DNA from: a virus
Direction: 5' to 3' (one strand)
IMG/VR virus record: IMGVR_UViG_3300023174_000330
Location: 1-40,080 of that record
DNA: 40,080 nt
Positions 4,999 to 37,300 of this stretch are shown in pieces. The notes under the pieces are model-generated. The model ran no database searches. It was not told the DNA's origin and was given only the letters and a program-made list of their open reading frames with translations. The position numbers and the translations under genes are program-made. Every line of letters starts with the position of its first letter. Position 1 is the first letter of the stretch.

Positions 4999-5729
4999 TG
5001 ATTTTCCAATGTTTCCAATAGGGCTTCTTTATTTTTAATCATTTCAGATATCATATCCTCAGTTGAGCCCGTCCAAAGACTTCTAATTTTTTTAGGGATT
5101 TTACTGCCATAATGTACTGTGCCTAAAGTATAGGTATGTAATCCACCACCATGATCTTTATTTTTAATTTTATAGCTGGGATACTTTTCAAAAAGACTTT
5201 CTACAGCGTCCCCGTCATAGGCCCTATCAAGAGTGAGAATTTTTTTTGATTCCCAAATATTTTCATAATCGTATAGCAATTGATCTAGCCTACGATCACT
5301 CATATTAACTACGATATGACCTGCATCTAATTTTTTTAATTGTGATTCGCCAGTTGCCCAAATACATTTGCTTTCAACTAATCCTTTTAAAATAGAATCA
5401 AATTCTTCTTGATTAAATTTTACAATTTCTACATCTGTATCTAGCAACACTACAAAATTATAATCTCTTAAATTACGCAATGCCCATACTTGACTTTGCA
5501 TTTTACGCCAAAAATTTACAGGTTTAGTTCTATTACAAAATTCTGTAAATAAATTTCCTTGATTATAGATATCATTCCATTGAACTATCTTAATAGTTGG
5601 AATTTTAATTACATGTTCATCACAGATAACATATTTGTCACCTGGCAATTTACGCCAACTTGGAAGACAATATTTTGCTATGAGTTCATAATATTTTGCA
5701 TCAGCTAATCCACTCCATGCTATATTCAT
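4995..5729 (-). CDS. Glycosyltransferase-like protein (GT-A type, DTD motif)
   Basis: I chose the ATG at 5729 rather than an upstream codon at 5750. It gives the ATGA overlap seen elsewhere in this operon and has AGAGGG six bases upstream. The 244-residue product starts MNIAWSGLADAKYY and has VVLLDTDVEIV with the metal-binding DTD at residues 97-99. LDAGHIVVN and a late GGGLHTYTLGTVHYG stretch follow, probably supplying acceptor and metal ligands. The family resembles GT8/GT32-like enzymes that use UDP-sugars. The substrate cannot be told from the sequence. Confidence 0.65.
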   Translation of the reverse strand: MNIAWSGLADAKYYELIAKYCLPSWRKLPGDKYVICDEHVIKIPTIKIVQWNDIYNQGNLFTEFCNRTKPVNFWRKMQSQVWALRNLRDYNFVVLLDTDVEIVKFNQEEFDSILKGLVESKCIWATGESQLKKLDAGHIVVNMSDRRLDQLLYDYENIWESKKILTLDRAYDGDAVESLFEKYPSYKIKNKDHGGGLHTYTLGTVHYGSKIPKKIRSLWTGSTEDMISEMIKNKEALLETLENQ

Positions 5730-6415
5730 AGTATATCCCTCTGCTGACAATACTCAGTCAGTATACGTTCCTTATGCCATTCATTGGCCATGGGAGTATT
5801 AGCAAACTCATGAAAGGAAGGAGCACCTAGGGTGTAGTGCAACAACTTAGCATTAGGATTAGCACCATATTCATCTGGTAGCCAATTCCATTCTTTGGGC
5901 AATTCACCTATTCGACTGTCATCTAGCCATGTAAATCTATGTAATTCTTTGCCTGTTGCTTGCATAATATACTCTGGAGTTAGTATTCTATTTGGAAAAC
6001 TATTACAATTCCAAAGTATAACACTGGACCAATTTTTTCGAGGATAATCCTCATTTTTGGCACCTAAGTATTTAACTGGCATTTTAGTTTTATAATTGTG
6101 CTTGACTACTTGTACATCGAACATACTGTTACGTAAATTCCATAATTCTGTAATGTCACTACGCACTACCATATCACCATCAATAAAAATGGCATGCCCT
6201 GACCAATGCATAAGATATGGTACTAAAAATCTAGTATAGATAAAATGATTGCTGCCGTCAGTATGAGTCTCACTGTAATCTTTAAAAAGATTCAGTGCTA
6301 CTGGTATAATACTAACGGGGCTAGTGCTAGTTCTTATTATGCTGTTAGCACATACATGGAATACTGTGGCCTCTCTAGGATCATACCCAATAAAAATTGG
6401 GATCAAATCTTTCAT
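5726..6415 (-). CDS. GT8-like glycosyltransferase
   Basis: The 229-residue product is the most typical glycosyltransferase of this cluster. IPIFIGYDPREA opens the nucleotide-binding strand, YTRFLVPYLM precedes the strand HAIFIDGDMVV with the metal-binding DGD at 79-81, and SSVILWNCNSF and LLHYTLGAPSFHEF complete the usual GT8 arrangement. It uses a nucleotide sugar, donor unknown. The ATG directly follows the stop of the uvsY gene (TAGATG), so this cluster appears to be cotranscribed with the recombination genes upstream. No separate promoter is visible between them. Confidence 0.72.
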   Translation of the reverse strand: MKDLIPIFIGYDPREATVFHVCANSIIRTSTSPVSIIPVALNLFKDYSETHTDGSNHFIYTRFLVPYLMHWSGHAIFIDGDMVVRSDITELWNLRNSMFDVQVVKHNYKTKMPVKYLGAKNEDYPRKNWSSVILWNCNSFPNRILTPEYIMQATGKELHRFTWLDDSRIGELPKEWNWLPDEYGANPNAKLLHYTLGAPSFHEFANTPMANEWHKERILTEYCQQRDIL

Positions 6416-9541: not shown

Positions 9542-11983
9542 TTATTTTTTCAATCCTGCAATTTTTAAGATTGCTGCAAGTTCAGATTCCATCATGTCAG
9601 CACCTGCTCTTCGTCTATAAGCAGTAGGACTCTGCTGACCTGAATTAGATCCAATTCCAGGCATGTTCATACCTTTCATCATGTCACCAAATTTACCTTG
9701 AACACCTTTCATCATGCCGCCCACTGGGTCATCACCACTAGCATCAAAGCCCATATCACCGGCCATGCCTTTGAATTTACCCATGGCATCGTCATAACTA
9801 GCAGATTGACCATTAATTGAACCACTACTGGTTCTAGTAGATTGCATATTACCAGATGGAATCTTACTTTGTATATTCTTCATCATGTCTTGAGGATTCA
9901 TACCACCAAGCTGGTCTTGCCCTGATGGCGGACGATATGTTCCTGGAACTAACTGACCTTGACTAAATGTGCCTGACCCTTGTCCATTAGGCAATTGAGC
10001 AACTTTAGCTTTCATCGCTTGAATTCTATAACGTGCTAGCGTTTGTTGTGGCGATTCTCCTGGTAAGGGAACCATTTTGGGCCATGCATCATTCATTTCT
10101 CCTTCTGCCATTGATACGTTATCAGAAAGACCAGCCATTCTTCTCATGTCCGATAACTCTCTTGAATGACTATGACGCTGCTTATATTTTTCCATGATGT
10201 TATTACAGGCTCTTTCCACCATGTGGTCAAATCTGTCAGCCTTATGAGTACCCGGGGGAACATGATATTTTTCTTTGAGTTCCTTACACATTTTGGTAAC
10301 GAACCCTTCTTCACCTATGGTGAAGGTGCCCTCAGTTTGATTAAAGAATCCACTAATACGACTACGAATTTCATCAACTAATTTGTTTACTTTGCCACTT
10401 TCAGCAAGTGGAGCAGGGTTTGGAATCATTGGGCCCGGGGCTGCTCCAGGTGGTGCAGCTGGTGGTGCCATTCCTGCATCAGGTGGCGGAGCAGGAGGTG
10501 CTGCTGCTTCAGGTGGCGGAGCAGGAGGTGCTGCTGCTTCAGGTGGCGGGGCTGCTGGTACTGCTGCTTCAGGAGGAGGAGGTGGTGGCGATCCTGATCC
10601 TGCGCCAGCAGATACAGTCATTGAAAACCCCAATTTACTGCTTAAATCTGTGCCATTTTCTCTATCATGCGATTTTAAATAGGAAGCTATAATTGGTCTA
10701 GCATCCATTTCATCTAAGCCTAAATCTGCTAGTAGATGAAAAGCACGATTTAATTTATTATTATCTATAAGACCTTTTATACTGTCTCTAATATTATCAC
10801 CATCTGTACCTAATGGAAGCTCATTACTAAATAAATCCTTTAGTTGAGCCATGGCTTGCTGTTGTAATTCATCATTATCGTCAAATAAATCATCATCTTC
10901 CTTGACAATTTGATCTAGATAACTTTCAAAAGCACTAAGTTCCTTAATTTTTTTGGTTTTTAACTTTGAATCTTTTTTGCCATCATCAGTCTTTAACATA
11001 TCCTCTTCTGTGTCAATTTCTTTAACAGGCAATTGTGATTCGTCGACTAATTTATAGATATAAGGAAATGCTGTTTTTAATTCTTCATTAAAACTGCGTA
11101 CAGTTAATCTATCAATCCAATCATTAAGCACTTCTTCTGGCACTTCTTGTGATTGATTTACTCTAAAATTCTCTTTAAAAATACTATAATTTTTAGACAT
11201 CTGTAATGAATGCACTTGTTTTTTGATGTCATTAATGCGTTCAATTACTTTTTGTTGAATATTGCCCATGCTTTCACTGACAACAGGGCTGCGATCTACA
11301 TAATTCTTAAAAAATCTTAATTTACTTAATTCTTCACTGAGGCCAATAACATGACGACCAATATCATCATATGGTGTACCACCATGGCTTACGTGCTGAG
11401 CCAATGCTCTTGCACCGTTTAAGTGCTTGACTGGATATAAAAATCTCTCACCCATTGCATTTTCAACATAAATGTGCTCAATGCGTTGAGATCTTCCATT
11501 CATGGAGTTTAAATTAACAGGTTGACTATGCCTTACTATAATTTTGGCCTCACCTATTTCTTGATAACTGGTCTTACTAGTACCAAATAGTTTTGATTCA
11601 TTCATGTCATTTTCCCCTAAGGAATCTCTTTTATCTAAATTAGTTTTTGACGGATTCTGTGCATTAAAATTTAATCCATGTGTTTGAGCAAATTTAGGTA
11701 ATATATTTCTAATAAATCTATCCCATGATCTATTGTTTACCGTATCACTCCATTGCACATCTAAACCAGGATCTTCGCCTTCCTCTGATAAACTGATAGT
11801 AACATTTACTATCTTTTCACCTTCCTCACTGGTAAAATCAAAGCTGAACTTTCTTGCATCAGCGTCTTTTAAATTAACACCGTCAATAGGTTTGTCATCC
11901 GCAGTGGTTTTTTCTAGGCTAGGAAACCTTGTTTGTAATTGTCTACCCAAATCTTTGGCTATTTGTTGGAAATTCGCACTCAT
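9542..11983 (-). CDS. Large virion structural protein (predicted), 813 residues
   Basis: Function is not assigned. It is the last gene of the terminase-tail operon. Residues about 130-230 form a segment I recall from large structural proteins of marine T4-like phages (ESKLFGTSKTSYQEI, then IYVENAMGERFLYPVKHLNGARAL and GGTPYDDIG). An acidic lysine-rich helical region follows, then a Pro/Ala-rich linker at about 459-527 built on PPPEAAAPPAP. The C-terminal part is rich in Gly and Met. Two short matches to a pattern ELxxxxxxAGL appear: SRELSDMRRMAGL near residue 606 and ESELAAILKIAGL at the C-terminus. No Shine-Dalgarno precedes the ATG; AATAAATA lies five bases upstream instead. Confidence 0.65.
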   Translation of the reverse strand: MSANFQQIAKDLGRQLQTRFPSLEKTTADDKPIDGVNLKDADARKFSFDFTSEEGEKIVNVTISLSEEGEDPGLDVQWSDTVNNRSWDRFIRNILPKFAQTHGLNFNAQNPSKTNLDKRDSLGENDMNESKLFGTSKTSYQEIGEAKIIVRHSQPVNLNSMNGRSQRIEHIYVENAMGERFLYPVKHLNGARALAQHVSHGGTPYDDIGRHVIGLSEELSKLRFFKNYVDRSPVVSESMGNIQQKVIERINDIKKQVHSLQMSKNYSIFKENFRVNQSQEVPEEVLNDWIDRLTVRSFNEELKTAFPYIYKLVDESQLPVKEIDTEEDMLKTDDGKKDSKLKTKKIKELSAFESYLDQIVKEDDDLFDDNDELQQQAMAQLKDLFSNELPLGTDGDNIRDSIKGLIDNNKLNRAFHLLADLGLDEMDARPIIASYLKSHDRENGTDLSSKLGFSMTVSAGAGSGSPPPPPPEAAVPAAPPPEAAAPPAPPPEAAAPPAPPPDAGMAPPAAPPGAAPGPMIPNPAPLAESGKVNKLVDEIRSRISGFFNQTEGTFTIGEEGFVTKMCKELKEKYHVPPGTHKADRFDHMVERACNNIMEKYKQRHSHSRELSDMRRMAGLSDNVSMAEGEMNDAWPKMVPLPGESPQQTLARYRIQAMKAKVAQLPNGQGSGTFSQGQLVPGTYRPPSGQDQLGGMNPQDMMKNIQSKIPSGNMQSTRTSSGSINGQSASYDDAMGKFKGMAGDMGFDASGDDPVGGMMKGVQGKFGDMMKGMNMPGIGSNSGQQSPTAYRRRAGADMMESELAAILKIAGLKK
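10481..10570 (-). repeat. 30-bp tandem repeat encoding the Pro/Ala-rich linker
   Basis: Two identical 30-base units (10481-10510 and 10511-10540) are followed by a diverged third copy (10541-10570). They encode a ten-residue PPAPPPEAAA-type repeat inside the 813-residue protein. The antisense strand reads as a Gly/Ala-rich open frame that is a by-product of the repeat. Copy number could change without shifting the frame. Confidence 0.85.
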
Positions 11984-11988
11984 ATCAA

Positions 11989-11996
11989 TATTTATT
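11989..11996 (-). promoter_or_regulatory. Late promoter motif AATAAATA, 5 nt before the ATG
   Basis: On the - strand AATAAATA ends five bases before the ATG of the 813-residue gene. With T4 late promoter geometry (-13 to -6) transcription would start at the A of the ATG. No ribosome binding site is visible in between or just upstream. Confidence 0.5.
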
Positions 11997-14785: not shown

Positions 14786-14793
14786 TATTTATT
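14786..14793 (-). promoter_or_regulatory. Late promoter motif AATAAATA
   Basis: AATAAATA on the - strand overlaps the gp16 stop codon and lies 18 bases before the next ATG, with GGAAAG in the leader. The placement suits a normal late promoter with a short 5' leader. Confidence 0.5.
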
Positions 14794-15265
14794 TAATATT
14801 TTTAAGTTTTTCTAACAAGCTATTCCTATCAGCTACAATATAACCATTACCTGGAATATCTAACCCTTTGGTATTATCTGTATTAGCTTCCTGATCAATT
14901 TTTTGCTTCTTTAACTGTAACTCAATCATTTTAAGCTTTTTATCAATTTTAGCAGCTTTGGCATCAATAGCATTCTTAAGCATAGTACCAGCTACTTCAA
15001 AAATACGTCCGCTGTAACGTGCTTCTACATTCATACCTAAATCCATAAGATCATCATAGGCATTAGTGGCACGATCTGCTAGAGCATCAAACTCTTTATC
15101 ACTTATATCACCTAGACCCTTGACCTGAGGTAATGCTGCGGAGATTTTATCAAACTCCTCCATATCTCTTAAAAAAGCTTCAGGTTTTTCTGCCTTCTTG
15201 GCTTCTTCTTTTACCAATTTTTTGTTTTCAGGTAAATTTAATACTTCTTCTAGTTTTTTAGTCAT
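14789..15265 (-). CDS. 16: Terminase small subunit gp16
   Basis: gp16 recognises phage DNA and stimulates the gp17 ATPase during packaging initiation. At 158 residues it matches T4 gp16 (164). The central region DALADRATNAYDDLMDLGMNVEARYSGRIFEV, followed by the KIDKKLKMIELQLKKQK coiled coil, is the gp16 oligomerisation core. An acidic/basic N-terminal helix and the short C-terminal tail (GNGYIVADRNSLLEKLKN) complete the protein. It follows gp4 by seven bases and has AAGG close to the ATG. Confidence 0.85.
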   Translation of the reverse strand: MTKKLEEVLNLPENKKLVKEEAKKAEKPEAFLRDMEEFDKISAALPQVKGLGDISDKEFDALADRATNAYDDLMDLGMNVEARYSGRIFEVAGTMLKNAIDAKAAKIDKKLKMIELQLKKQKIDQEANTDNTKGLDIPGNGYIVADRNSLLEKLKNIK

Positions 15266-15269
15266 ACCT

Positions 15270-15277
15270 TATTTATC
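15270..15277 (-). promoter_or_regulatory. Late-type motif GATAAATA next to the gp16 start
   Basis: GATAAATA on the - strand ends four bases before the gp16 ATG and overlaps the gp4 stop. The bases in between (AAGG) also serve as a ribosome binding site, so this match may be incidental. It is listed because the same motif recurs at other virion genes. Confidence 0.3.
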
Positions 15278-16081: not shown

Positions 16082-17155
16082 TTAAGGAAAATCTACAGGT
16101 GAGGCAGTAGTTGAATTATTTGGTTTTTTAGTTGAAAAGAATGTGTCTTTTATTCCACCAATAGCTGCACCTGCTCCAGCAATAGCTACTCCAGCTAATA
16201 ATTTACTACCTTCAGCAGCAACACCTGCTTTGGTTAAATTTTTAGTATTTTGATATGTATTAACTGCTGCAATACCAGCAGTTAAGTAATTGCCTTGATT
16301 AATATTATCAGCAACACTAGAAATCCCAGCTAATACTCCGCCAGTTCCAAATAAAGTGCTTGTGCCACCACCTGCTGGGCTCAATGGACTTGGTAATTTA
16401 TCATAATGATCTTTGGCAAACCCTATGACATTGTCCCCTTGAATAGCACCTATATTATAAGAAACAGATTCGTATACAATTGTCATAGTACATTCAGAAC
16501 TTCCGCCACCTTGATCTGCGCTATTTGGGCTATCATGATTAAAAGATGTAATTAACGGATTAATTAATGTATAACTATTATATTCTCTTTTATTAAGTTG
16601 ATATAATACTATTTTATTAAAAAAAGGAATTGATGAATTATTATCAAAACCATAACTAACCTTTATGTCATTTGGGCCAGAAGTAGCATTTCTTTTATAA
16701 AACTCACTTTTAGCCACTGATGGATCTGCATAATAATAAGAATAGTAATTTTGCCAAAGCCTATTAACTATGTGAGCTCTATCATCATGAAATCTAAAAA
16801 CTATAGGTTGAAATTCATGTGTTAACTGAACTACTTTTTTACGATTATATTGATTTACTGTTTGGGTTTTAAAAGAAAATTTAGGGAGATCAACACTTTT
16901 CACTAATAACCCAATCTCAAATTGATGACGATCTCTTAAACTTTGGTCTCGTAACGCTCCTCGATTTATATCAAAATAAACATGATATAAAAACTTTGCC
17001 TTAGGGGCCAACCTAAAATCATCATCAACAAAAGTCCTAGCAGCATGCTGCCAATCGCCTAATTGACCTTTAGGTTTAAAAAAGCCTTTAGCTGTATCTT
17101 TTAGATTAAATCCAGCACCAAGAGTGTTTAATAATGAATTGAATTTACTAGCCAT
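16082..17155 (-). CDS. Tail-tube-fold protein, candidate baseplate tube initiator or cap
   Basis: Residues about 50-250 look like a tail-tube (gp19-type) domain: AKFLYHVYFDINRGA, then GLLVKSVDLPKFSFKTQTVNQYNRKKVVQ, FQPIVFRFHDDR and ECTMTIVYESVSYNIG. This is the pattern of T4 gp54/gp48-like initiator and cap proteins, which polymerise with the tube. The C-terminal 110 residues are Gly/Ala-rich and apolar (AGVAIAGAGAAIGG), possibly inserted into a neighbouring subunit or membrane. No ribosome binding site precedes the ATG; TATAAATA ends six bases upstream. Which of the two T4 counterparts it matches cannot be decided here. Confidence 0.6.
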   Translation of the reverse strand: MASKFNSLLNTLGAGFNLKDTAKGFFKPKGQLGDWQHAARTFVDDDFRLAPKAKFLYHVYFDINRGALRDQSLRDRHQFEIGLLVKSVDLPKFSFKTQTVNQYNRKKVVQLTHEFQPIVFRFHDDRAHIVNRLWQNYYSYYYADPSVAKSEFYKRNATSGPNDIKVSYGFDNNSSIPFFNKIVLYQLNKREYNSYTLINPLITSFNHDSPNSADQGGGSSECTMTIVYESVSYNIGAIQGDNVIGFAKDHYDKLPSPLSPAGGGTSTLFGTGGVLAGISSVADNINQGNYLTAGIAAVNTYQNTKNLTKAGVAAEGSKLLAGVAIAGAGAAIGGIKDTFFSTKKPNNSTTASPVDFP

Positions 17156-17161
17156 ATAGTT

Positions 17162-17169
17162 TATTTATA
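17162..17169 (-). promoter_or_regulatory. Perfect late promoter TATAAATA, 6 nt before the ATG
   Basis: The exact T4 late consensus TATAAATA lies on the - strand between the terminator behind gp19 and the tail-tube-like gene. It ends six bases before the ATG, so the expected transcript has a 5' leader of about one base and no Shine-Dalgarno. Confidence 0.65.
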
Positions 17170-17241: not shown

Positions 17242-17865
17242 TTAACCACCACCTGTGGCCATTGTTCTTAAAGTTCTTCCAACATTTGCACCAATTCCAG
17301 AACCTTGTGGAGTCTGGATGCAGTTGTCTGGCTGAATTGTTATATCAATTGTTTGAGGAGCCGCTTCAGCATAACTTAAACTTTGATAGTTTGCTTGTGT
17401 AATATAACAACCATAACACCCCCAAGTTTCTAAAACATTAGCATTCCATATACCATTACCGCCATCTAAAATCTCAATTTTCATTGTAAATTTATAGTCT
17501 GTGCCACTGGCTGCTGATGCTTGCTCAAAGAAGTCGAATTGCTTCTGCATCTGTTCACCAATCATTTTACTTACTACCCCTGTAGCATCGTCACGTAAAA
17601 CAAGCTGAATAGTTTGCCAAGTTGGTTTGCCAGCATAGTTAATTTTGCTGTTGTAAGTTTCAATAACTGTATTTGCAAACTGTACGTTAGGCTTGGCTGC
17701 TGTTTGTACTTGCTTGGTTAATTCAGTAGTCGGTGAACTAATTCCAAAATTTTCAAATAAAATTCTAAAACGATATTTGAGTTTTGGCATTAATGTGCCT
17801 TGACTACTAGCACTACTATCTGTAGCTAGTGGTACTGTAAATCTATTTAATGTTGCAATTGACAT
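17242..17865 (-). CDS. 19: Tail tube protein gp19
   Basis: gp19 forms the inner tube through which DNA passes. The 207-residue product (T4: 163) has the tube fold pattern: LKYRFRILFENFGIS, then AKPNVQFANTVIETYNSKINYAGKPTWQTIQLVLRDD, a helix of FDFFEQAS type, YKFTMKIEILDG, and the late strand ETWGCYGCYITQANYQSLSY. The N-terminal 25 residues and the C-terminal GSGIGANVGRTLRTMATGGG tail are probably flexible. AATAAATA lies 22 bases upstream with GGAG in the leader. It follows gp18 directly and is followed by a strong terminator, so sheath and tube form one late unit. Confidence 0.92.
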   Translation of the reverse strand: MSIATLNRFTVPLATDSSASSQGTLMPKLKYRFRILFENFGISSPTTELTKQVQTAAKPNVQFANTVIETYNSKINYAGKPTWQTIQLVLRDDATGVVSKMIGEQMQKQFDFFEQASAASGTDYKFTMKIEILDGGNGIWNANVLETWGCYGCYITQANYQSLSYAEAAPQTIDITIQPDNCIQTPQGSGIGANVGRTLRTMATGGG

Positions 17866-17887: not shown

Positions 17888-17895
17888 TATTTATT
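17888..17895 (-). promoter_or_regulatory. Late promoter motif AATAAATA before gp19
   Basis: AATAAATA on the - strand overlaps the end of gp18 and lies 22 bases before the gp19 ATG, with GGAG in the leader. It would give gp19, needed in many copies, its own late transcript. Confidence 0.5.
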
Positions 17896-20800
17896 ATTTT
17901 AGACCACCAGTACTCTTTATGCGTAGCGGTATGTAGATAAATTCAACAGCCTTAACTGGTACTATGGCCACATCAACATACAACTCATTCTTATCAATTC
18001 TACTTGGTGTATTATTAGTATCATCACAAACTACAACATAATCATATAATGCTCTTTGACCAACTAACTCAAGTAAGAAACTTTCAACACTGTTCTTAAT
18101 CTCATCTCTTGTAAGTTTGTCATTTGGCTCAAAAACATATGGTTTAGCAATGATGTCCAACTGCCTACGCATATAAACAATCAATCTTGCTACATTGATA
18201 CGATCTAATGCACTAGCGTTTTTAGCACGAGTCTTCTGACCGTAATTAACTAACCCTACACCTGTGAAGAATGTAATTGGATTAATCTTTACATCATACA
18301 ATGTATCTCTTTGACCATTGTTTAATGCAATAACTTTAAACTCGCCTTCACTATCAACATAACCTACACTTGTGGCATTTGTGATGCCACCACGTCTTGT
18401 TCCAGCTGGAGCAAACCACGGATAGCTGACATTATCACTTAGAGCAATAGTTCTTAACATCATATGACTTGGCGGCACTACAATGTTATTTCCTAAATTG
18501 TCACTAGTAAATCCCCATGGATAAAATAAAGACATATATTCATCATAACTTGGGGCGCCAAGATCGTTGTCCTCTACTGCTAAACGTAAATTATTTCCCC
18601 ATGCCATTAAACTTGTAGCATCTGGTAATAATCTTGATGGAGTATCACCTACAATAAATGCAGTTAATGCACGATCATAATTCAATGTGATCATCTCACC
18701 AATCAATTCTGGATAGCCTGGGCAAGCAATTAAGTTAAACACTCTTGCTTCTTCACGAATATCTGTTGAACTATTAATTGTTGCCTGTAACGCTTGAACT
18801 ACAACCTTACGCTGTGCTTTACGTCCAAATGATCCACAACCATTATCTTGATTTGCGCTTACTGTAATCCAACGATGTGGATAATATTCAGCCATTGATT
18901 CGTCTTCATATCTCATATTATCATCATCAATGTTAACATAATTATGTACAAATTTCTTAACATTAAATCCGCTTCTACGTAGATTCCATAACAACATACC
19001 TTTTGGATATAGTGCAGGATCTGGAGCATCAAAATCAACGTAATCACTCACTAGCAAATCAACAATGTCACCTGGCATATCACTGTTCATACCAGTAGTA
19101 TTATAACGAGCATCATGGAATAAAACACCATCTTGTGTACTTTGATCTGTGACATCTTGCTCAACCCATTTCTTAGAAATAGGCCCTGACTTTGCTTCAT
19201 CAAATTTATAAATTCTAGGGAAGTTTTCTAAATCACTAGTGTCAATCCATAAGTCGCCATTACGTAAAGCTGTTCCATCACTTTGTAATAATGGAGCAGT
19301 TGCACTAACTAATGGACCCATTGGATCTGTCTTTTTGTCATCAGAGGAATTATAATATGGACTGGATGGATGTAGATATCCAACCCACCCATCATTACCA
19401 CTATGAATTAAAATATCTACTTCATCAATGATACTGCTATACCATAATGTACCATCTGTAGTCAATGTTGAAGGACTATCCTTACTAGCAGTAAATCTTA
19501 ATGGCTCCCATAAACTTACTATATAAGTAGTATTATCAAGAGCTTCATAAGATGCACGAACATTGTCATTATCTAGGAATCCTAATGAACTTAAAAAACC
19601 ACTATATTCTTGACCAATTCTAAAATCACCGCCATATTTGTGACTAATAACAATTCTTTTTTGTGCATCAACTGTAGCTTCAATATTATTGAGTCCTGAA
19701 GAATTAATAGCACCAGCAATTGTATCTGCATCACCTGCATTACCACTTAATTCAAATTCAACATGAACTGTATCAGATAATCCAGCTTGACCAACTAACC
19801 CTTCTTTAAAGAAAATGCCTTGGCCAGTTCCAAATTCTGCCCATCCATCAACAATTTTCTTACTAATAATGCTGTTTGGGCCTTGCATTGATTTTCTAAA
19901 TAATCTAAAATCAGCAACAATTGGTCCAAAATCACTATCAGTTTCAGTGGTGTTTGTTTGACAATATACTGTGCCAGCAGCAATATTTGCACCACCGCCA
20001 CTTCTATCTAATCCAAAAATTGCAGCATGGCCGCTAGCATATAAAGGAGCTGTAACTTTATCAAAAGCTTCTGTTACTGCATTATATTTCTTTAGTGCTA
20101 ATTTTGCACCGCCTTTAGGCTCAGTAGTTCTAATCCAAACACTACCTGTTCTTGCTCCTTCATTAGCACCGGGTGTTTCACCACTTACAAACACTGGAGC
20201 AAATTCTGGTGCATTGGTTAATGGTTGAATTGCCAAAGTCACTGGGGAATATTCCGCTGAAACAATACCTAAAGGTGCCAACGCACTACCACTAATTGTA
20301 AAAGATGAACGGTTTAGTGCATAAAATTCTATGGTAGCATTTCTAACTGATGCAAAGATTCCATTATCACTAAAATTAGAATTAATTTTTGCAACTACTT
20401 CATTTAGAGTCATTGTACCTGGTTGATCTGCTTCTGAAAAAGTGATATTTGGCTGTCCGTTTACACTTAATGTTTTACCATTAAGTACAGTAGCCGCTAT
20501 TGCATTTGAAACCACTACTGGCCAGCTAACTGACCAATCTTCACTGCCTACAACTACCCATTGACCTGGATCAATATTATAATTATTTCCTGGACTCTTA
20601 AAATAAAGCACATCAGGTTCACTGTAATCAGTGTTTAAATTGCTCAAACTTACAATAGCATAATCACCAATTACACCAACTGAAGTTTTTGGTGTATAAT
20701 CACCATCTGCATAATCGACAACTTTGGCAGTGTCTGTAATGACAATAGGAGTTTTTGCTGTAAACTTTTGGCCAAGTTTATTAGATCTAGGAGCATTATT

Positions 20801-21250
20801 CCATTCAAAAATACCCCAGCTTGAATTGGCAGTATCTAACCAATATGTACCACTTTCTGGTTCAGCACTTGGGGCTTCAGCTTGAGCATTTAATGCTTTA
20901 AGATCAATATCTGCTCTTACTACATAGGCTCTGTTACTAACACCCAATAAGCTATATGCTGCTTGTAAACCATATTCATTTTGTTCACCTGCATGAATTG
21001 GGTTACTATTAGCATCAGTCTTAAAAATTGGGGTTCCAAATGTTTCTGCTAGATCACGTTGACTTGTAATTAAGTACGCTTTACCTGCATTAGCTTTTAA
21101 TGTGCCTGTAGCAATACCAGTATTAGCAGCATTTTGCTTGTTTTCTTCGGAAGCTACAAGGATAAATGGTACTGTGCTTGGTGCTGATGGGGCATAAAAA
21201 CTTTCGTCAATAACTGTTACGGCGACGCCTGGTGAATTTAATTGGGCCAT
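17894..21250 (-). CDS. 18: Tail sheath protein gp18, enlarged
   Basis: gp18 is the contractile sheath. The 1118-residue product begins with the sheath signature AQLNSPGVAVTVIDESF and ends with the conserved C-terminal domain: VSANQDNGCGSFGRKAQRKV, then ITNATSVGYV, GLVNYGQKTRAK, RINVARLIVYMRRQL and the final VEFIYIPLRI. T4 gp18 has 659 residues. The extra length lies in the middle (about residues 130-680), where short segments of related look recur: GTYWLDT, GSVWIRT, GTLWYSS and GDLWIDT, each followed by a Trp- or Tyr-rich strand. These insertions would project from the sheath surface. AGGAG precedes the ATG, and an exact TATAAATA lies 30 bases upstream. Confidence 0.93.
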   Translation of the reverse strand: MAQLNSPGVAVTVIDESFYAPSAPSTVPFILVASEENKQNAANTGIATGTLKANAGKAYLITSQRDLAETFGTPIFKTDANSNPIHAGEQNEYGLQAAYSLLGVSNRAYVVRADIDLKALNAQAEAPSAEPESGTYWLDTANSSWGIFEWNNAPRSNKLGQKFTAKTPIVITDTAKVVDYADGDYTPKTSVGVIGDYAIVSLSNLNTDYSEPDVLYFKSPGNNYNIDPGQWVVVGSEDWSVSWPVVVSNAIAATVLNGKTLSVNGQPNITFSEADQPGTMTLNEVVAKINSNFSDNGIFASVRNATIEFYALNRSSFTISGSALAPLGIVSAEYSPVTLAIQPLTNAPEFAPVFVSGETPGANEGARTGSVWIRTTEPKGGAKLALKKYNAVTEAFDKVTAPLYASGHAAIFGLDRSGGGANIAAGTVYCQTNTTETDSDFGPIVADFRLFRKSMQGPNSIISKKIVDGWAEFGTGQGIFFKEGLVGQAGLSDTVHVEFELSGNAGDADTIAGAINSSGLNNIEATVDAQKRIVISHKYGGDFRIGQEYSGFLSSLGFLDNDNVRASYEALDNTTYIVSLWEPLRFTASKDSPSTLTTDGTLWYSSIIDEVDILIHSGNDGWVGYLHPSSPYYNSSDDKKTDPMGPLVSATAPLLQSDGTALRNGDLWIDTSDLENFPRIYKFDEAKSGPISKKWVEQDVTDQSTQDGVLFHDARYNTTGMNSDMPGDIVDLLVSDYVDFDAPDPALYPKGMLLWNLRRSGFNVKKFVHNYVNIDDDNMRYEDESMAEYYPHRWITVSANQDNGCGSFGRKAQRKVVVQALQATINSSTDIREEARVFNLIACPGYPELIGEMITLNYDRALTAFIVGDTPSRLLPDATSLMAWGNNLRLAVEDNDLGAPSYDEYMSLFYPWGFTSDNLGNNIVVPPSHMMLRTIALSDNVSYPWFAPAGTRRGGITNATSVGYVDSEGEFKVIALNNGQRDTLYDVKINPITFFTGVGLVNYGQKTRAKNASALDRINVARLIVYMRRQLDIIAKPYVFEPNDKLTRDEIKNSVESFLLELVGQRALYDYVVVCDDTNNTPSRIDKNELYVDVAIVPVKAVEFIYIPLRIKSTGGLK

Positions 21251-21280: not shown

Positions 21281-21288
21281 TATTTATA
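21281..21288 (-). promoter_or_regulatory. Perfect late promoter TATAAATA before gp18
   Basis: The exact T4 late consensus lies on the - strand 30 bases before the gp18 ATG, with AGGAG in the leader. Spacing and strength fit a main late promoter for the sheath-tube unit. Confidence 0.78.
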
Positions 21289-21345
21289 GTAAATGGAGAA
21301 AATCGGTGAGTTTGAGTTTAAAAGCAACTAATAAATATCACTATT

Positions 21346-22012: not shown

Positions 22013-22786
22013 TCAACCAATAACAAAATAATAGCCTTCTCTCGCGCCGCCGACAAACATGTCAAGGTCTTTTTCTAACTTCTCAACTTCCTCTTTACCA
22101 GCTGATTTTAAGTCAGTGCCATTCAATCCACCAGCACCACCAGGGCCTGCTATTTGACTAAACTTACTACGTGCCTCACCTAAAATTACCTTGCATGTGG
22201 CCAATGTATAGTCTTTAAACCATTGAGCGGCATAGGTGTCTTTGAGCAAGTGATCATCAGGTCTGTAATTATAACCCCTAATCAAAATTTGCTCGCCCTC
22301 ACCATATGGACGCTGTAATATTCTCAATGTATGGGTAGTTGGAATCCACTGAAATTCAATAAAAGCACCAAACATTCTACCCACTAACTTTTGATATCCT
22401 GCAAACATTTCATATGTGGCTATACCGCCTAACATGGTACTGTTTAACAAATATGTATTTGTATATGCCAAATTAAATGGTTCAAAATTTGTGCCGCCGC
22501 TACCGCCTGCCGTTCTAGATCCAATAGTTCTACGATAAACACTACGTACTTCAACTATTTCTTTTGGAAGAATGTAGTCGTTAGTATCCAATTTAAATTC
22601 TAAAAAATAATAGCCTTCTTCTACGCTGTTACTACTGCGTTGCCTAAACTTGGCAAGAGCTTTATTTAAAGCTGTTTCATAATGAATTGGGTCCAATTCC
22701 ACATCCACCATGCCATCACCTAACATGGCTTTACAATATCTATAAACATTTTCTCTTTCTTGAACGATAGTGGTATCTGGCGTCAT
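22013..22786 (-). CDS. 13: Neck protein gp13-like head-tail connector
   Basis: gp13 joins the filled head to the tail with gp14. The 257-residue product (T4: 309) has the connector pattern: an N-terminal helix pair (ENVYRYCKAMLGDGMVDVELDPIHYETALNKALAKFR), then GYYFLEFKLDTNDYILPKEIVEVRSVYR. The C-terminal region (KFSQIAGPGGAGGLNGTDL, then VEKLEKDLDMF and a final IG) I recall from marine phage gp13. Position next to gp14 and gp15 agrees. The start has GGGGGA six bases upstream. The late motif GATAAATA on the - strand, 16 bases upstream, is half of a perfect palindrome shared with gp14. Confidence 0.68.
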   Translation of the reverse strand: MTPDTTIVQERENVYRYCKAMLGDGMVDVELDPIHYETALNKALAKFRQRSSNSVEEGYYFLEFKLDTNDYILPKEIVEVRSVYRRTIGSRTAGGSGGTNFEPFNLAYTNTYLLNSTMLGGIATYEMFAGYQKLVGRMFGAFIEFQWIPTTHTLRILQRPYGEGEQILIRGYNYRPDDHLLKDTYAAQWFKDYTLATCKVILGEARSKFSQIAGPGGAGGLNGTDLKSAGKEEVEKLEKDLDMFVGGAREGYYFVIG

Positions 22787-22801
22787 ATTAGTTCCCCCTG
22801 T

Positions 22802-22823
22802 ATATTTATCAGCTGATAAATAT
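22802..22823. promoter_or_regulatory. Perfect 22-bp palindrome carrying two divergent late promoter motifs
   Basis: The half-site ATATTTATCAG is followed directly by its exact complement. This creates GATAAATA on the - strand (22810-22803), 16 bases before the gp13 ATG, and GATAAATA on the + strand (22815-22822), four bases before the gp14 ATG. Both are late-type -10 elements. One short element would thus direct the two neck genes in opposite directions. Confidence 0.65.
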
Positions 22824-22826
22824 CAT

Positions 22827-24020
22827 ATGCCACGCTTATCACTTTACCGCCCAGAACGAGGAAACGATTATAAATTCATAGACCGCCAAATCAGTGAAAT
22901 GTTTGCTGTTGGTGGTACAGATTTTTACCTACACAAATATTTAGGAGTAAAAAGTTCAGCAGAAAATGCCAGCGCTGCTACTCCTTTTTATACCAATGAC
23001 GGTGTCAATCCCACTTATGACCCTACTCAAATACAAGATTTACTGTTATTAGAAAATAGAGATAGAAAATATGACCCTAGCATCTATAAAATTAGAGGGC
23101 ATTACAATGTACAAAATTTAGATTTTAATCTTAGTCAGTTTGGCCTGTTTATTGACAATGACACTGTGTTTGCCACTGTACACATTAATGATTGGATACA
23201 GACCATAGGCCGTAAACCAATTAGCGGCGATGTTGTTGAAATGCCTCATCTAAAAGATGAATTTGCTCTAAACAATTATAACATTGCCTTACCAAGATAT
23301 TTTGTCATTGAAGACGTTAGCAGAGCCAGTGAAGGGTTTAGTATTACTTGGTGGCCACATTTATATAGATTAAAACTTAAGAAAATTACAGACTCACAAC
23401 AGTTTGCTGACATATTGGATCAACCTATTACAGATGCCAACGGTGATCCCACAACCCAAACTCTACGTGATGTATTAAGCACCAAAGGCAAAGAATTAGA
23501 AATTAATGACAGCATCATAACACAAGCTGAAGCCGACACTCCGCTTAGCGGCTATGAAACTAGACAATTTTATACATTAGCTATTGATCCTACTAATGGA
23601 AATCCCATATTAGAAACAGCAGATGACAATATGACCCCACCTGATACCAGCAGTATGGGACTTGACACTAGTAGAATACATGGTCGTGCTGTTAGAAGCG
23701 GATATGTAGGATACTTACTAGGTGATGGATTCCCACCTAATGGCTATGATTTTGGTCACGGAGTAACTTTTCCAGCTAATCCATATCTCAATGATTACTA
23801 TCTAAGAACTGATTTTGCACCAAATAGATTGTTTAGATATGATGGCGTTCGTTGGATCAAAGTAGAAGATGCAGTACGTCATAAACTGACTAATACTGAT
23901 GATCGAACAACTCAAAAAACTGGCTTTATTAACAATACTAACGTAAACATTATTGGTGGCAAAGAGGTTCCAGAAAGACAGGCGTTGAGTAAAGTACTTA
24001 AACCTAAGGCAGATTTCTAA
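22827..24020 (+). CDS. 14: Neck protein gp14-like head-tail connector, enlarged
   Basis: gp14 completes the neck below gp13. The 397-residue product (T4: 256) starts MPRLSLYRPERGNDYKFIDR, then MFAVGGTDFYLHKYLG. The core matches the gp14 pattern around FGLFIDNDTVFATVHIND, GRKPISGDVVEMPHL, and RASEGFSITWWPHLYRLKLKKITDSQQFADIL. An extra C-terminal segment contains NDYYLRTDFAPNRLFRYDGVRWIKVED. The ATG at 22827 is preferred over an upstream GTG at 22770 that would overlap gp13. No Shine-Dalgarno precedes it; GATAAATA ends four bases upstream. The stop overlaps the gp15 start (TAATG). Assignment rests on motif memory plus position between gp13 and gp15. Confidence 0.62.
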   Translation: MPRLSLYRPERGNDYKFIDRQISEMFAVGGTDFYLHKYLGVKSSAENASAATPFYTNDGVNPTYDPTQIQDLLLLENRDRKYDPSIYKIRGHYNVQNLDFNLSQFGLFIDNDTVFATVHINDWIQTIGRKPISGDVVEMPHLKDEFALNNYNIALPRYFVIEDVSRASEGFSITWWPHLYRLKLKKITDSQQFADILDQPITDANGDPTTQTLRDVLSTKGKELEINDSIITQAEADTPLSGYETRQFYTLAIDPTNGNPILETADDNMTPPDTSSMGLDTSRIHGRAVRSGYVGYLLGDGFPPNGYDFGHGVTFPANPYLNDYYLRTDFAPNRLFRYDGVRWIKVEDAVRHKLTNTDDRTTQKTGFINNTNVNIIGGKEVPERQALSKVLKPKADF

Positions 24021-25666
24021 TGCAATTTTTTTATGATGGTCAGATAAGACGTTATCTTATACAAACAATAAGATTACTCAGCAACTTTGTTGTAAAATAT
24101 GGTGATGGCACCCTAGCAAGAGTACCTGTTATGTATGGCGACCAAGATCGTCAAGTTGGTAATATTATTAGACAAAACAGTGAAAATAAAGTTAACAGCA
24201 TGCCAAGAATTGCTGTATACATTAGTAGTCTTGAAATGGAAAAAGACCGTCTAGCGGATGCAACTTTTGTAGGAAAAATGCATATAAGAGAACGTGATAT
24301 AGAATATAATGAAGAAACAGGCAGAGACGAATATACCAGCACTGAAGGCACTAATTATACCATAGAAAGAATCATGCCCACACCTTACAAACTTACAGTA
24401 AAGGCAGATATTTGGACTTCAAGTACCGAGCAAAAATTACAACTTCTAGAACAAATGATGATGTTGTTTAACCCCAGTCTTGAAATTCAAACTACTGATA
24501 ATTATGTAGACTGGACCAGTTTAAGTGTGATCTATATGGATGGTATAAATTTTAGTAGCCGTTCAATTCCAGTAGGGCAAGATACTCCTATAGATATTGC
24601 CACTATGACGTTGAGCATGCCTATTTGGATCAGTCCTCCAAGTAAGGTAAAACGATTAGGTGTCATTGAAAGTGTTGCTATGGGAATGTTCAGTCAGATA
24701 GGCAGAGGTAGTGGAGGTTATATTGATGGGTTAGGAGTAGATGATGGTGGTGCAAGCCCTACACAGTTAAACAATGTAGGTGCCACTGCTACTGTCATAG
24801 ACAACTATAACCTTATTGTTTATGGCGGCCAAGCTAGAATATTTTATCCAGATGCTAGTGGATCACATAAAGATGATTTAATTAATGTTGAAATAAATTC
24901 AGAACAAAGAGTTAATTGGAATTTGATATTTGACAAGCATATTGGTCAATGGGACTCTAGAAACAGCAAAATATTCTTACTTCAACCTAACGGAACACAA
25001 GTTGTTGGTACTATAGCCATCAATCCATTAGATACAACCATATTAAATATAGAATGGATTACAGATACATATCCAAGCAACACTGATATCGTCAGTGAAT
25101 ATAGGCCCAATAGCCCAGGAACATTTGATGCTATTATTGATCCAAAAACTAAAGGCCCTAATAGTGGGTTACCATCATCCACAGTTGGTACTAGATATTT
25201 GATCATTGACAATATTGGCGGTGGCATACGTGAAACTTTAATTGCTGAAAATTCCAGTAATAGAATAGATACTACTATAGATTATAATAAAGTTTTAAGA
25301 ACAGAAGTATACGTCAATAACATCCCAGTAGATTTTGAAGTATTAAATATTCAAGGAAAATTAGTAATTAGATTAGCTATATCAGCACAGATAGATGATA
25401 CTATAACCTACGAATTATTTGTCAATCAATATGGGCCTAGTGCTTGGCAAAATCAAGACGGCAGTGACTTTATAGCCAATACTAACGATATTATTGAATG
25501 GACTGGTTCAAAATGGCGTGTATTATTTGATAGCACTGCATCAAAAAATGTCATACGATATCTTACCAACATATATACTAACGTCCAATACAAATGGAAC
25601 GGTGTTAGCTGGGTTAAAAGTTTTGAGGGCGAATACCTTAAAGGATATTGGCGTATATTGCTATGA
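24020..25666 (+). CDS. 15: Tail sheath stabiliser/completion protein gp15, with long C-terminal extension
   Basis: gp15 caps the tail and binds the neck. Residues 1 to about 210 match the family: QFFYDGQIRRYLIQTIRLLSNFVVKYG, RVPVMYGDQDRQVGNII, NSMPRIAVYISSLEM, PTPYKLTVKADIW and MTLSMPIWISPPSKVKRLGVI. T4 gp15 has 272 residues; this one has 548. The extension (about 215-548) contains DIIEWTGSKWRVLFDS and YKWNGVSWVKSFEGEY, Trp-containing strands that resemble those added to gp14 and gp18. The start overlaps the gp14 stop. The stop forms ATGA with the Nudix gene. Confidence 0.8.
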   Translation: MQFFYDGQIRRYLIQTIRLLSNFVVKYGDGTLARVPVMYGDQDRQVGNIIRQNSENKVNSMPRIAVYISSLEMEKDRLADATFVGKMHIRERDIEYNEETGRDEYTSTEGTNYTIERIMPTPYKLTVKADIWTSSTEQKLQLLEQMMMLFNPSLEIQTTDNYVDWTSLSVIYMDGINFSSRSIPVGQDTPIDIATMTLSMPIWISPPSKVKRLGVIESVAMGMFSQIGRGSGGYIDGLGVDDGGASPTQLNNVGATATVIDNYNLIVYGGQARIFYPDASGSHKDDLINVEINSEQRVNWNLIFDKHIGQWDSRNSKIFLLQPNGTQVVGTIAINPLDTTILNIEWITDTYPSNTDIVSEYRPNSPGTFDAIIDPKTKGPNSGLPSSTVGTRYLIIDNIGGGIRETLIAENSSNRIDTTIDYNKVLRTEVYVNNIPVDFEVLNIQGKLVIRLAISAQIDDTITYELFVNQYGPSAWQNQDGSDFIANTNDIIEWTGSKWRVLFDSTASKNVIRYLTNIYTNVQYKWNGVSWVKSFEGEYLKGYWRILL

Positions 25667-31326: not shown

Positions 31327-31334
31327 TACTTATA
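31327..31334 (-). promoter_or_regulatory. Possible late promoter variant TATAAGTA
   Basis: TATAAGTA on the - strand differs from the late consensus by one base, overlaps the giant fibre stop, and lies 17 bases before the ATG of the 794-residue gene. Support is weak; read-through from the fibre gene is an alternative. Confidence 0.25.
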
Positions 31335-34300
31335 ATCCACCAATCAATGTTACAAAGTCATCCCAAGTAGTCGAACTAGCTACCCAAGTTTTCAAATCAC
31401 TTAACGAAACAGTACCAATTGTTCCATCAGCACCTTGTGTACCAGTAGCACCTTGTGTACCAACTCCAACTGGACCTTGCGAACCTTCATTACCTTGAGC
31501 ACCGTAAAATCCTTGTAGTCCTTGGAATCCTGTTGTACCTTGAATGCCTTGGCAACCTTGAATACCCTGTGTGCCATCATTACCTTGGATACCAGTTATA
31601 CCTTGTGTACCTTGACGACCTTGAACACCTTGGATACCTTGTGTACCCTGCTGACCTTGTATACCCTGCTGACCTTGTATACCCTGCTGACCCTGTGTAC
31701 CCTGTGTGCCTTGTGTACCCTGTGTACCCTGTGTACCTTGAATACCTTGCTGACCTTGGATACCCTGTTGGCCTTGTGTACCCTGTGTGCCTTGTGTACC
31801 CTGTGTACCCTGTGTACCTTGAATACCTTGCTGACCTTGGATACCCTGTTGGCCTTGTGTACCCTGTGTACCCTGTGTACCCTGTGTACCCTGTGTACCC
31901 TGTGTACCTTGAATACCTTGCTGACCCTGTGTGCCTTGTGTACCCTGTGTACCCTGTGTACCCTGTGTACCTTGAATACCTTGCTGACCTTGGATACCTT
32001 GCTGACCTTGGATGCCCTGTGTACCTTGGATACCTTGACCACCTTGAATACCTTGAATACCTTGTGTACCTTGCGCGGACATCTGGCTCCAATATGTTGG
32101 AGAAGTACTTGGCGCTTGGCTTGTGCTATGCGCTAATATGCATACATAAGATCCACTTAGATAGAATACAGCATCATCAACAGCGTAAGTTGTACCGCCA
32201 ACCCAAGCTCCTTTGTAAGTTAACCCTCTACCTTGGATACCTTGCTGACCCTGTGTACCTTGGATACCTTGCTGACCTTGAATACCTTGCTGACCTTGAA
32301 TACCTTGCTGACCTTGAATACCTTGTGTACCTTGGATACCTTGCTGACCTTGAATGCCTTGCTGACCTTGAATACCTTGCTGACCTTGAATACCTTGACC
32401 ACCTTGGATACCTTGTACACCCTGTAGTCCTTGAATACCTTGGACACCTTGAATACCTTGACCACCTTGAATACCCTGTACACCTTGTACGCCTTGTACG
32501 CCTTGAATACCCTGTACACCTTGGATACCTTGACCACCTTGAATACCCTGTACACCTTGGATCCCCTGCACACCTTGGATGCCTTGGATACCCTGTTGAG
32601 TCATTTGGTTCCAATAAGTGGTATTTGCCAAGCTTGGTCTTTGACCACTAAATGTAGCAGTACTATAAACAGCTATCCAACTTTGACCATTTTCAAATAC
32701 TACATCATTTTGGAAATAGGAAGTTGCATTGTTATATACACCTCTCCAAGTAATTCCAAAACCTTGAATACCTTGTACACCCTGTACACCTTGTATACCC
32801 TGTACACCTTGTATACCCTGTACACCTTGTATACCCTGCACACCTTGGCGTCCTTGTACACCTTGTATACCTTGTACGCCTTGTATGCCTTGTAGACCTT
32901 GTGCTCCTAATAGATCCCAATAAACAGTATTTGTCGTAACTGGATTATTGTTTAAGTTAGCATTTGTTAAGCTTAACCATGTACTACCGTTGTATAGAAC
33001 AATGTCGTTAGCTGCGTATGTAGTAGCTGCACTCCAACTACCCTGCCACTTAAATCCCGAACCTTGAATACCTTGTACACCCTGAATACCTTGTACACCC
33101 TGTACACCTTGGATACCCTGTACACCTTGGATACCTTGTACACCTTGGATACCTTGACCGCCTTGAATGCCCTGTACACCTTGTATACCCTGTACACCTT
33201 GGATACCTTGTACACCTTGACGTCCTTGTACGCCTTGGATACCTTGTACGCCTTGGATACCTTGTACGCCCTGTAGACCTTGGATACCTTGGCTATCCAT
33301 TCTACCCCAGTATGTGGTGTTTGCATCACTTGGTCTTTGGTTAGTGAATGTGCCACTAGTGAATGGATATACCGCAATCCAGGTGTTACCATTCTCATAT
33401 ACTATGTCATTTTGTGTATAAGCATATGTGCTAGACCAAGTACCCTGCCATGTAACACCAACACCTTGAATACCCTGTACACCTTGTACACCTTGAATGC
33501 CCTGTACGCCCTGTATACCTTGAACACCTTGGCGTCCTTGTACACCTTGAATACCTTGTACACCTTGAATACCTTGTACACCTTGAATACCCTGTACACC
33601 TTGGATACCTTGACCGCCTTGAATACCCTGAACACCTTGGATACCTTGTACACCTTGTACACCTTGCAGGCCTTGGATACCTTGCATGGTCTCTCTGTTC
33701 CAATAGGTAGTATTTGCGTCACTTGGTCTTTGGTTAGTGAAAGATCCGCTAGTAAATGGCCATACAGCAATCCAGCTATTACCATTTTCATAAACTACAT
33801 CGTTTTGATAATAAGCTGTTGCTGCGTTCCAAACACCGCGCCATGTAATACCAAGACCCTGAATACCTTGTACACCTTGTACACCTTGAATACCTTGTAC
33901 ACCTTGAATACCTTGTACACCTTGAATACCTTGTACACCTTGAATACCCTGTACACCTTGGATACCTTGACCGCCTTGAATACCCTGAACACCTTGGATA
34001 CCTTGTACACCCTGTATACCCTGCACACCTTGAATACCCTGTACACCTTGTAGACCTTGAATACCTTGTGCTGTTAAACGTGACCAATATGTAGTGTTTG
34101 CGTCACTTGGTCTTTGATTTGTAAATGTACCAAGGGTATATGGCCATACAGCAATCCAACTGTTACCATTTTCATATACAATGTCATTTTGAGTATAGGC
34201 ATATGTGCTAGACCAAACCCCTTGCCATGTAACGCTAAGTCCTTGGATACCCTGTACACCTTGTACACCTTGGATACCCTGTACACCTTGGATACCCTGT

Positions 34301-37300
34301 ACACCTTGACGTCCTTGTACACCCTGTATACCCTGTACACCTTGGATGCCCTGTACACCTTGTAAGCCTTGAATACCTTGTGCTGTTTGACGTGCCCAGT
34401 ATGTGGTATTTGCATCACTTGGTCTTTGATTTGTAAATGATCCACTGCTAAATGGATATACTGCTATCCAGCTGTTACCGTTTTCATATACAATATCATT
34501 TTGTGTATAAGCGGTTACTGAACTCCAAACACCCTTCCAAGTAACTCCAACACCTTGAATACCTTGTACACCCTGTATACCTTGTACACCCTGCACACCT
34601 TGTAGACCTTGACTGGACAATTGGTTCCAATAAGTAGTATTACTTACTGTTGGCGTTTGACCACTGAATGTACCAGTAGTTATTGGGTAAACTGCTATCC
34701 AGCTTGTACCAGCATAGAATACAACATCATTCTGTTGATATGTTGTGGCAGCACTATACGCACCTTTCCAATTGATACTGAAGCCTTGAATACCTTGAAT
34801 ACCTTGGCGACCTTGAATACCTTGAATACCTTGAGCACCAGTCAATTCCCAGTTTTGATTAGCTGGAGTATACGGGCCACTACCTGCACTAACACCGTCC
34901 CAATCTGTGTATTGATATAGATTTGGTTGTCTAGCACTGTTATACGGTGATGCTGCACTTGGACCAGAAGGGGTTAACGCCACATATGTACTACCAAGAT
35001 ATGTGACCATATCGTTGGTGTTATAAGTGACTGTTGCCGACCACGCACCTTGCCACTTAAATCCAGCACCTTGAATACCTTGTACACCTTGTACACCTTG
35101 GATACCTTGTACACCTTGGATACCCTGTACGCCTTGACGTCCTTGTACACCTTGTACACCCTGTACGCCTTGAACACCTTGTAACCCTTGTAGGCCTTGA
35201 ATACCTTGGCTGGTCATCTGGTTCCAATATGTAGTATTGGTTAAGCTTGGGCGTTGATTAGTAAATGTTCCACTGGCAAACGGATACACTGCAATCCAGC
35301 TTTGTCCGTTTTCATATACAACATCATTTTGTGTATAAGCTGTTACTGCACTCCAAGTGCCTTTCCAGCTAATACTTAAACCTTGAATACCCTGTACACC
35401 TTGAATACCCTGTACGCCTTGGATACCCTGTACACCCTGTACACCTTGTACGCCTTGGATACCCTGTACACCTTGAATACCCTGTACACCTTGAATACCC
35501 TGTACACCTTGGATACCCTGTACACCTTGGGAGACCAACATATTCCAAAACGCATTATTAGAACCAACTGTTGGCGCATTATTTAAATTGTTTGTAACAA
35601 TTGAAATATATGATCCGCCTCTGTAGAAAACAACGTCATTTAAGTTATATGTGGTTGCACTAGTCCAAGTACCTTGGAAATTAATACTAAATCCTTGAAT
35701 ACCCTGCTGACCCTGTATGCCTTGTACACCCTGTATACCCTGTACACCCTGTATACCCTGCACACCTTGTATACCCTGCACACCTTGTATACCCTGCACA
35801 CCTTGTATACCCTGCACACCTTGTATGCCTTGGATACCTTGGCTATCCATTCTATTCCAATATGTAGTATTACTTACACTTGGACGTTGATTGGTAAAGG
35901 TTCCGCTTGCAAATGGATAAACTGCAATCCAGCTATTACCATTTTCAAATACCACATCGTTTTGTGTATAAGCTGTTACTGCACTCCAAGTGCCTTTCCA
36001 TACTAAGCTAAGTCCTTGAATACCTTGTACACCTTGTACACCTTGAATACCTTGTACACCTTGAATACCCTGTACACCCTGGATACCTTGTACGCCTTGG
36101 ATACCCTGTACACCTTGGATGCCTTGTACACCTTGGATGCCTTGGATACCCTGATTGGTCATTATGTTCCAATACGTAGTATTAGCTAAACTTGGACGTT
36201 GATTTGTAAATGTTCCACTTGAGGAGGGGTAAACTGCAATCCAGCTTTGTCCATTTTCATACACAATGTCGTTTTGTGTATAGGCGGTAGCACTACTCCA
36301 AGTGCCTTTCCATACTAAGCTAAATCCTTGAATACCTTGAATACCTTGTACACCTTGTACACCTTGGATGCCTTGTACTCCCTGTATACCCTGTACACCT
36401 TGAATACCCTGTACACCTTGAATACCCTGTACACCTTGAATACCCTGTACACCTTGAATACCCTGTACACCTTGAATACCTTGTACGCCTTGAATACCTT
36501 GTACACCTTGGATACCCTGTACACCTTGTACACCTTGAATACCTTGACTGGTCATCACGTTCCAGTTAGCAGTATTAGTTGCACTTGGTCTAGAATTTAA
36601 ACTAATTGCTACTGCAATCCAGCTTTGGCCATTTTCAAATACTACATCGTTTACGGCATAAGTTGTAGCACTACTCCATGTACCTCTCCAAACAATACTA
36701 AATCCTTGAATACCCTGCTGACCTTGAATACCCTGTACACCCTGTATACCTTGTACACCCTGTATACCTTGTACACCTTGGATACCCTGTACACCTTGAA
36801 TACCCTGTACACCTTGGATACCTTGTACACCCTGTATACCCTGTACACCCTGTATACCTTGACCACCTTGGATACCCTGTACACCCTGTATACCTTGTAC
36901 TCCTTGGATACCCTGTACGCCTTGGATGCCCTGTACACCCTGAATACCTTGACCACCTTGGATACCCTGTACGCCTTGGATGCCCTGTACACCCTGAATA
37001 CCCTGTACACCTTGGATACCTTGACCACCTTGGATACCCTGTACGCCTTGGATGCCCTGTACACCTTGGATACCCTGTACACCTTGAATGCCTTGACCAC
37101 CTTGAATACCCTGTACACCTTGAATACCCTGTACACCTTGAATACCCTGTACACCTTGGATACCTTGTACACCTTGACGTCCTTGAATACCTTGTACGCC
37201 TTGTATACCTTGTACGCCTTGTATACCTTGTACGCCTTGTATACCTTGAGCAGCAATGATACTCCAATATACGAACGCCCAAGTTGCAGTACTAATTCCA

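Follow-up and report, generated by a model that had tools for sequence, protein, structure and literature searches.

Opposed boxes of probable T4-type late promoters between divergent gp13 and gp14-position genes, and a likely class of leaderless late genes in some giant T4-related phages

The window analysed here, the whole of a 40,080-base virus record, derives from a T4-related giant phage; its ORFs were called mechanically, and virus records of this kind may be fragments. Judged by the protein encoded in the gp14 position, the closest isolates are the Agrobacterium phage Atu_ph07 (40%), the Sinorhizobium phage Phosso (37%) and Pseudomonas phages of the PA5oct group (36%). A gp13-like head-tail adaptor of 257 aa is encoded on the minus strand (22013-22786; phrog_211, E 2.9e-30, the same family that T4 gp13 matches). 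It diverges from a plus-strand gene at 22827-24020, the start codon of which is backed by homologues and the 397-aa product of which matches the 'virion structural protein' family phrog_11591 (E 2e-87). A gp15-like tail sheath stabiliser of 548 aa follows on the plus strand (24020-25666; PF16724, T4-gp15_tss, E 1.9e-20). A preliminary description of this DNA had named the divergent genes as neck genes; the assignment is borne out for gp13 by phrog_211, while the label 'gp14' rests on phrog_11591 and on gene order, which fits T4 gp14 (head closure Hc2). Alignment of the gp14-position protein to the single T4 gp14 sequence with hhalign gave a probability of 1.3%, a Pfam search with this protein returned no match, and its structure model, with a pLDDT of 49, is of too low quality for use. 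Upstream of 22827, all genes lie on the minus strand back to about 2.9 kb, the plus-strand ORFs found there being nested in minus-strand genes. Elsewhere in the window, a minus-strand ORF of 2846 aa (31330-39870) comes with numerous long ORFs that overlap on either strand, a pattern seen in giant structural genes with repeats.

Between the divergent genes lies a perfect 22-bp palindrome, ATATTTATCAGCTGATAAATAT (22802-22823), which is its own exact reverse complement and is composed of two opposed putative late-promoter boxes and an AGCT spacer. One copy of GATAAATA, the candidate box of gp14-gp15 (22815-22822, plus strand), ends 4 nt before the gp14 ATG, and the other, the candidate box of gp13 (22803-22810, minus strand), 16 nt before the gp13 ATG; the two copies are separated by 4 bp, exactly as had been described. 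This is the longest perfect palindrome of the window, the next one, TAATCAAATATTTGATTA, measuring 18 bp and lying at 2369-2386 within the thymidylate synthase gene (2227-2895). Among 200 order-3 Markov sequences of window length, 6 contained a palindrome of at least 20 bp and 1 contained one longer than 22 bp. Since the three copies of GATAAATA in the window, two of them inside the palindrome, are not above chance level, the evidence concerning the palindrome comes from position and conservation and not from copy number. The start region of gp14 reads GATAAATA-TCAT-ATG, with no SD ahead of the ATG, and the gp13 ATG is preceded by an SD-like GGGGGA (22793-22798, minus strand), where relatives read GGAGA. 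That the plus-strand box stands only 4 nt from the gp14 ATG had been overlooked in the preliminary description. Its suggestion that this site is the only promoter of gp14-gp15 agrees with the gene map, the palindrome's plus-strand box being the sole late-type box upstream of this plus-strand island and the neighbouring upstream genes all lying on the minus strand. A host sigma-70 promoter for gp14 was also considered and rejected: the sole nearby upstream match on the plus strand (22710-22737) is at chance level.

One scan of viral contigs yielded 80 relatives, of which 75 loci hold both gp13 and gp14, and in all 75 the two genes are divergent. The intergenic regions were compared among 47 distinct gp13/gp14 sequences. 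Both opposed TAAATA boxes are present in all 47; the gp14-side box is GATAAATA in 43, and the gp13-side box is in most relatives either GATAAATA or GCTAAATA, the two being about equally common. In every one of the 47 the gp14-side box lies 4, 5 or 7 nt from the ATG (7 nt in 8 distinct relatives), and in all tabulated distinct gp14 sequences, including those with a 7-nt ATG, the fifth or sixth base following the box is an A. The spacing between the TAAATA cores is 8 bp in 37 of the 47 sequences and 4, 5, 7, 19 or 27 bp in nine others. We also considered a helical phasing of the two starts and rejected it, since no constant phase accommodates spacings of 4, 5, 7, 8, 19 and 27 bp. In three relatives (L058, at 5570-5992, L060 and L064) a 140-aa HNH-endonuclease-like gene occupies the space between the outer boxes, both of which are kept; such insertions represent a natural separation of the paired promoters.

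The dyad symmetry itself is not conserved. Symmetric boxes together with a symmetric spacer occur in only 5 of the 47 distinct sequences, and the symmetry has already been lost in relatives whose gp14 is 94-96% identical to that of the window (L002, L003, L004 and L007). The preliminary description had proposed a search of related phages for a conserved palindrome; the two boxes are present in all 47 sequences, the symmetry in few. What is conserved, therefore, is the boxes, their orientation and the box-to-ATG distance, and not the palindrome as such, the perfect symmetry of which is an incidental by-product of two identical boxes flanking a spacer that happens to be AGCT. This pattern bears directly on the idea that a dimeric repressor or activator uses the palindrome as its operator. 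Perfect dyad symmetry and a length typical of operators are what such a site would offer, but most relatives lose the symmetry and keep the boxes, the centre of the palindrome is free to vary, and no other copy was found among the longer palindromes of the window; we regard an operator as very improbable.

We then measured how far each TAAATA lies from the ATG-initiated ORF that follows it, in the window and eight related records (nine records, 706 kb). The distribution is bimodal: a spacing of 4 nt occurs at 25 sites and one of 5 nt at 23, the interval of 8-15 nt is sparsely occupied, and a second class extends from 16 nt onwards. Sites at 4-5 nt make up 48 of 534 TAAATA occurrences (9%), compared with 0.55% for anagram hexamers in the same records, and their start codons are exclusively ATG (ATG:GTG:TTG = 48:0:0). 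An SD was found at none of 47 such sites, as against 50 of 84 sites at 16-30 nt. A T precedes the ATG in 40 of the 47, whereas the corresponding share is 27% for ATGs overall and 37% for SD genes; T at -1 and A at +1 is the pattern favoured at start sites by bacterial polymerase. The genes lying 3-7 nt downstream of a box belong to about 21 families, seven of which recur in several records. The leaderless and leadered classes do not differ in the bases on either side of the box, suggesting a single kind of promoter put to two uses.

Both classes are represented within the window, the first five boxes named here being on the minus strand. To the leaderless class we assign the GATAAATA box at 15270-15277, which is 4 nt away from the start codon of gene 14789-15265, and the AATAAATA box at 11989-11996, 5 nt before the ATG of virion gene 9542-11983 (4-5 nt in homologues of the relatives). 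The tail-tube-like gene 16082-17155, whose ATG follows the TATAAATA box at 17162-17169 after 6 nt (5-6 nt in homologues of the relatives), would be near-leaderless. Leaders with an SD are found downstream of the TATAAATA box at 21281-21288, which precedes gene 17894-21250 (1118 aa, a tail-sheath homologue judged by relatives), and of the AATAAATA box at 17888-17895, which precedes the tail tube gene 17242-17865. A further box with an SD leader lies at 14786-14793. On the plus strand, AATAAATA also occurs at 21330-21337, between the sheath-side and dNMP kinase genes, where no plus-strand gene follows; this copy is probably a chance occurrence or an antisense start. A second back-to-back pair was noted at position 84062 of the related record G003, with 8 bp between the cores and both divergent ATGs 4 nt from a box.

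The sites at 4-5 nt in these nine records include homologous genes and are thus not all independent, which is why the result from a single genome matters. In a more distant, 517-kb relative (record G011), the gp14 locus L193 encodes a protein 37% identical to the window gp14, with the gp14 box 5 nt from the ATG. Throughout this genome TAAATA-N5-ATG occurs 56 times, against 3 for the reversed control, and an ORF begins 4-5 nt after 58 of 311 TAAATA sites, whereas anagrams occupy this position in 0.73% of cases; the start codons at 4-5 nt sites are ATG, GTG and TTG in a ratio of 59:1:1. Back-to-back pairs in which both ATGs lie at 4-5 nt are found at 10713, 99991, 225601, 255114 and 262884, their boxes abutting or nearly so. 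Sites at 4-5 nt number only 1-3 each in T4, S-PM2, Atu_ph07, PA5oct and the leadered relative G012 (2 in the 488 kb of Atu_ph07 and about 3 in T4), and boxes at exactly 4 nt from an ATG were found in none of T4, Aeh1 and RaK2. On these sequence grounds we infer that gp14 is one of a set of leaderless late genes present in its own clade and in the 517-kb relative.

The ATG-proximal boxes could instead be translational elements, namely A/U-rich ribosome sites of a non-SD type, with gp14 being read from an unseen promoter further upstream. TAAATA is indeed A/U-rich and positioned where a ribosome would bind. However, the identical box with the same flanks also stands 16-30 nt upstream of SD genes, and a gap between 8 and 15 nt would be expected of a promoter and not of a ribosome site. 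Moreover, because gp14 is divergent, another plus-strand promoter would need an antisense position inside gp13. We therefore consider a purely translational role of the boxes unlikely.

The boxes resemble known late promoter motifs. The T4 late motif TATAAATA is placed at -13 to -6, and Aeh1 uses CTAAATA (PMC1524935); the late motif of CBB/GAP32 is ATAAATA (PMC5259590). GATAAATA and GCTAAATA fall within these published Aeh1 and CBB/GAP32 variants. In the portions of those two papers available to us (PMC1524935, PMC5259590), the Aeh1 and CBB/GAP32 descriptions include neither a divergent pair nor a leaderless placement, unlike the situation in the window clade. As with the gp55/gp33/gp45-dependent late promoters of T4, a -10-like motif is found before virion genes in the window. 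The arrangement is nevertheless different: T4 genes 13, 14 and 15 lie on one strand, whereas the candidate promoters of the window stand back to back, one of them abutting an ATG. Atu_ph07 and Phosso share with the window the divergent gp13/gp14 order and the opposed TAAATA boxes; in these two isolates, however, gp14 is preceded by an SD-bearing leader, which the window gp14 lacks. Homologues of gp55 are encoded in the related record G001 (38%, E 7e-55) and in the 517-kb relative (39%, E 9e-55), as well as in Atu_ph07.

Considering all these observations, we judge it very probable that the palindrome represents two T4-type (gp55-class) late promoters placed back to back, with gp14 leaderless and gp13 provided with an SD leader. 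A gp55-class sigma factor together with host RNA polymerase would read the minus-strand GATAAATA to produce the gp13 mRNA with its short, G-rich SD leader. The gp14-gp15 mRNA would arise from the plus-strand GATAAATA and begin on the A of the gp14 start codon or no more than 1 nt from it, which would make the message leaderless for gp14 translation. A start at or beside the gp14 ATG follows from the position of the box 4-7 nt from the ATG, the lack of an SD and T4-type spacing. Specifically, T4 spacing (PMC1524935) and the T-1/A+1 pattern predict that the gp14 mRNA begins with the first or second base of the start codon, A or T (22827-22828, plus strand), and the same spacing with the local sequence predicts the gp13 start at 22797-22798 on the minus strand. 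Use of the boxes by gp55, the start sites and leaderless translation are thus predictions from sequence, and several details fit them less well. With an ATG at 4 nt, strict T4 spacing would make the T and not the A position +1; the 7-nt ATG of 8 distinct relatives would leave a leader of 2-3 nt; and the gp55 region lies outside the 40-kb window itself.

The predicted starts also bear on the notion that the palindrome acts in RNA, as a hairpin serving as terminator or stabiliser. The palindrome strand does fold, at -7 kcal/mol (z -2.4), but both starts would fall outside the palindrome, so that neither message would contain it; furthermore, a terminator scan did not call it terminator-like and the symmetry needed for a hairpin is not retained in relatives. 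We attach a negligible probability to such a role.

If the palindrome is indeed a pair of late promoters, the late holoenzyme would bind one or the other box at a time. The T4 open complex is melted from -12 to +2, with the clamp located upstream (PMC7892883). A second, oppositely facing complex should therefore not fit beside the melted region, the polymerase and the clamp behind it; only one of the promoters is probably occupied at a given moment, and mutual exclusion of two open complexes is plausible by analogy with T4. The preliminary description had gone further, taking the palindrome for one regulatory device that makes its promoters fire alternately and so keeps the amounts of the two neck proteins in balance. 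The closeness of the boxes, at which two open complexes should not fit if T4 is a guide (PMC7892883), and the 8-bp core spacing kept in 37 of 47 sequences would suit such a device. Exclusion of two polymerases, however, does not impose alternation, and the 8-bp spacing may persist simply by descent. Relatives in which the boxes are 19 or 27 bp apart, or are separated by the endonuclease gene, indicate that exclusion is not required. Balanced amounts fare no better: given the G-rich SD leader of gp13 and the predicted start of gp14 at its AUG, the translation signals differ and equal promoters are not expected to yield equal protein. We consequently find enforced alternation with balanced neck amounts quite improbable.

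Leaderless messages are well known from individual genes, lambda cI being an example. Messages such as that of cI have no SD and start with AUG, and the same holds for the class described here, for which the start at the AUG is predicted. Unlike cI-type cases, this class would comprise dozens of late genes in one phage lineage and, as predicted from sequence, would arise through promoter placement. Leaderless mRNAs are recognised by means of a 5'-terminal AUG (Brock et al. 2008, cited in PMC5312081), and phage transcripts are often leaderless, as PMC5312081 remarks. Our search among the available papers for leaderless T4-like late transcripts found no report of such a class.

A homologue of IF3 (PF00707) was noticed in four leadered relatives, namely G012 (84111-84362), Atu_ph07 (256-501), Phosso (382560-382817) and RaK2 (138590-138841). 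PF00707 was found in none of the 517-kb relative, G001 and the other leaderless-clade records examined, most of the clade records being fragments. IF3 is also absent from other leadered phages (T4, S-PM2, PA5oct and SCTP-2). Because IF3 disfavours leaderless mRNAs, the split between presence and absence is suggestive, and the proposed leaderless late regulon may be connected with the lack of a phage-borne IF3 such as those four leadered relatives carry.

Taken more broadly, it appears likely that late promoters have been shifted onto start codons in some giant T4-related phages, generating a leaderless late regulon of dozens of genes translated from a 5'-terminal AUG; in places its promoters stand back to back, with a leaderless message on one side or on both. 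If this reading is true, TAAATA followed by 4 or 5 nt and an ATG would be a simple sequence rule for locating late genes, their true starts and further lineages of this kind. Leaderless initiation would then be a main route to virion proteins in a phage lineage, which entails a prediction for the use of host ribosomes late in infection (relative IF2 and IF3 activity, start-codon stringency), and a T4-type late programme would be able to run largely without ribosome-binding sites.
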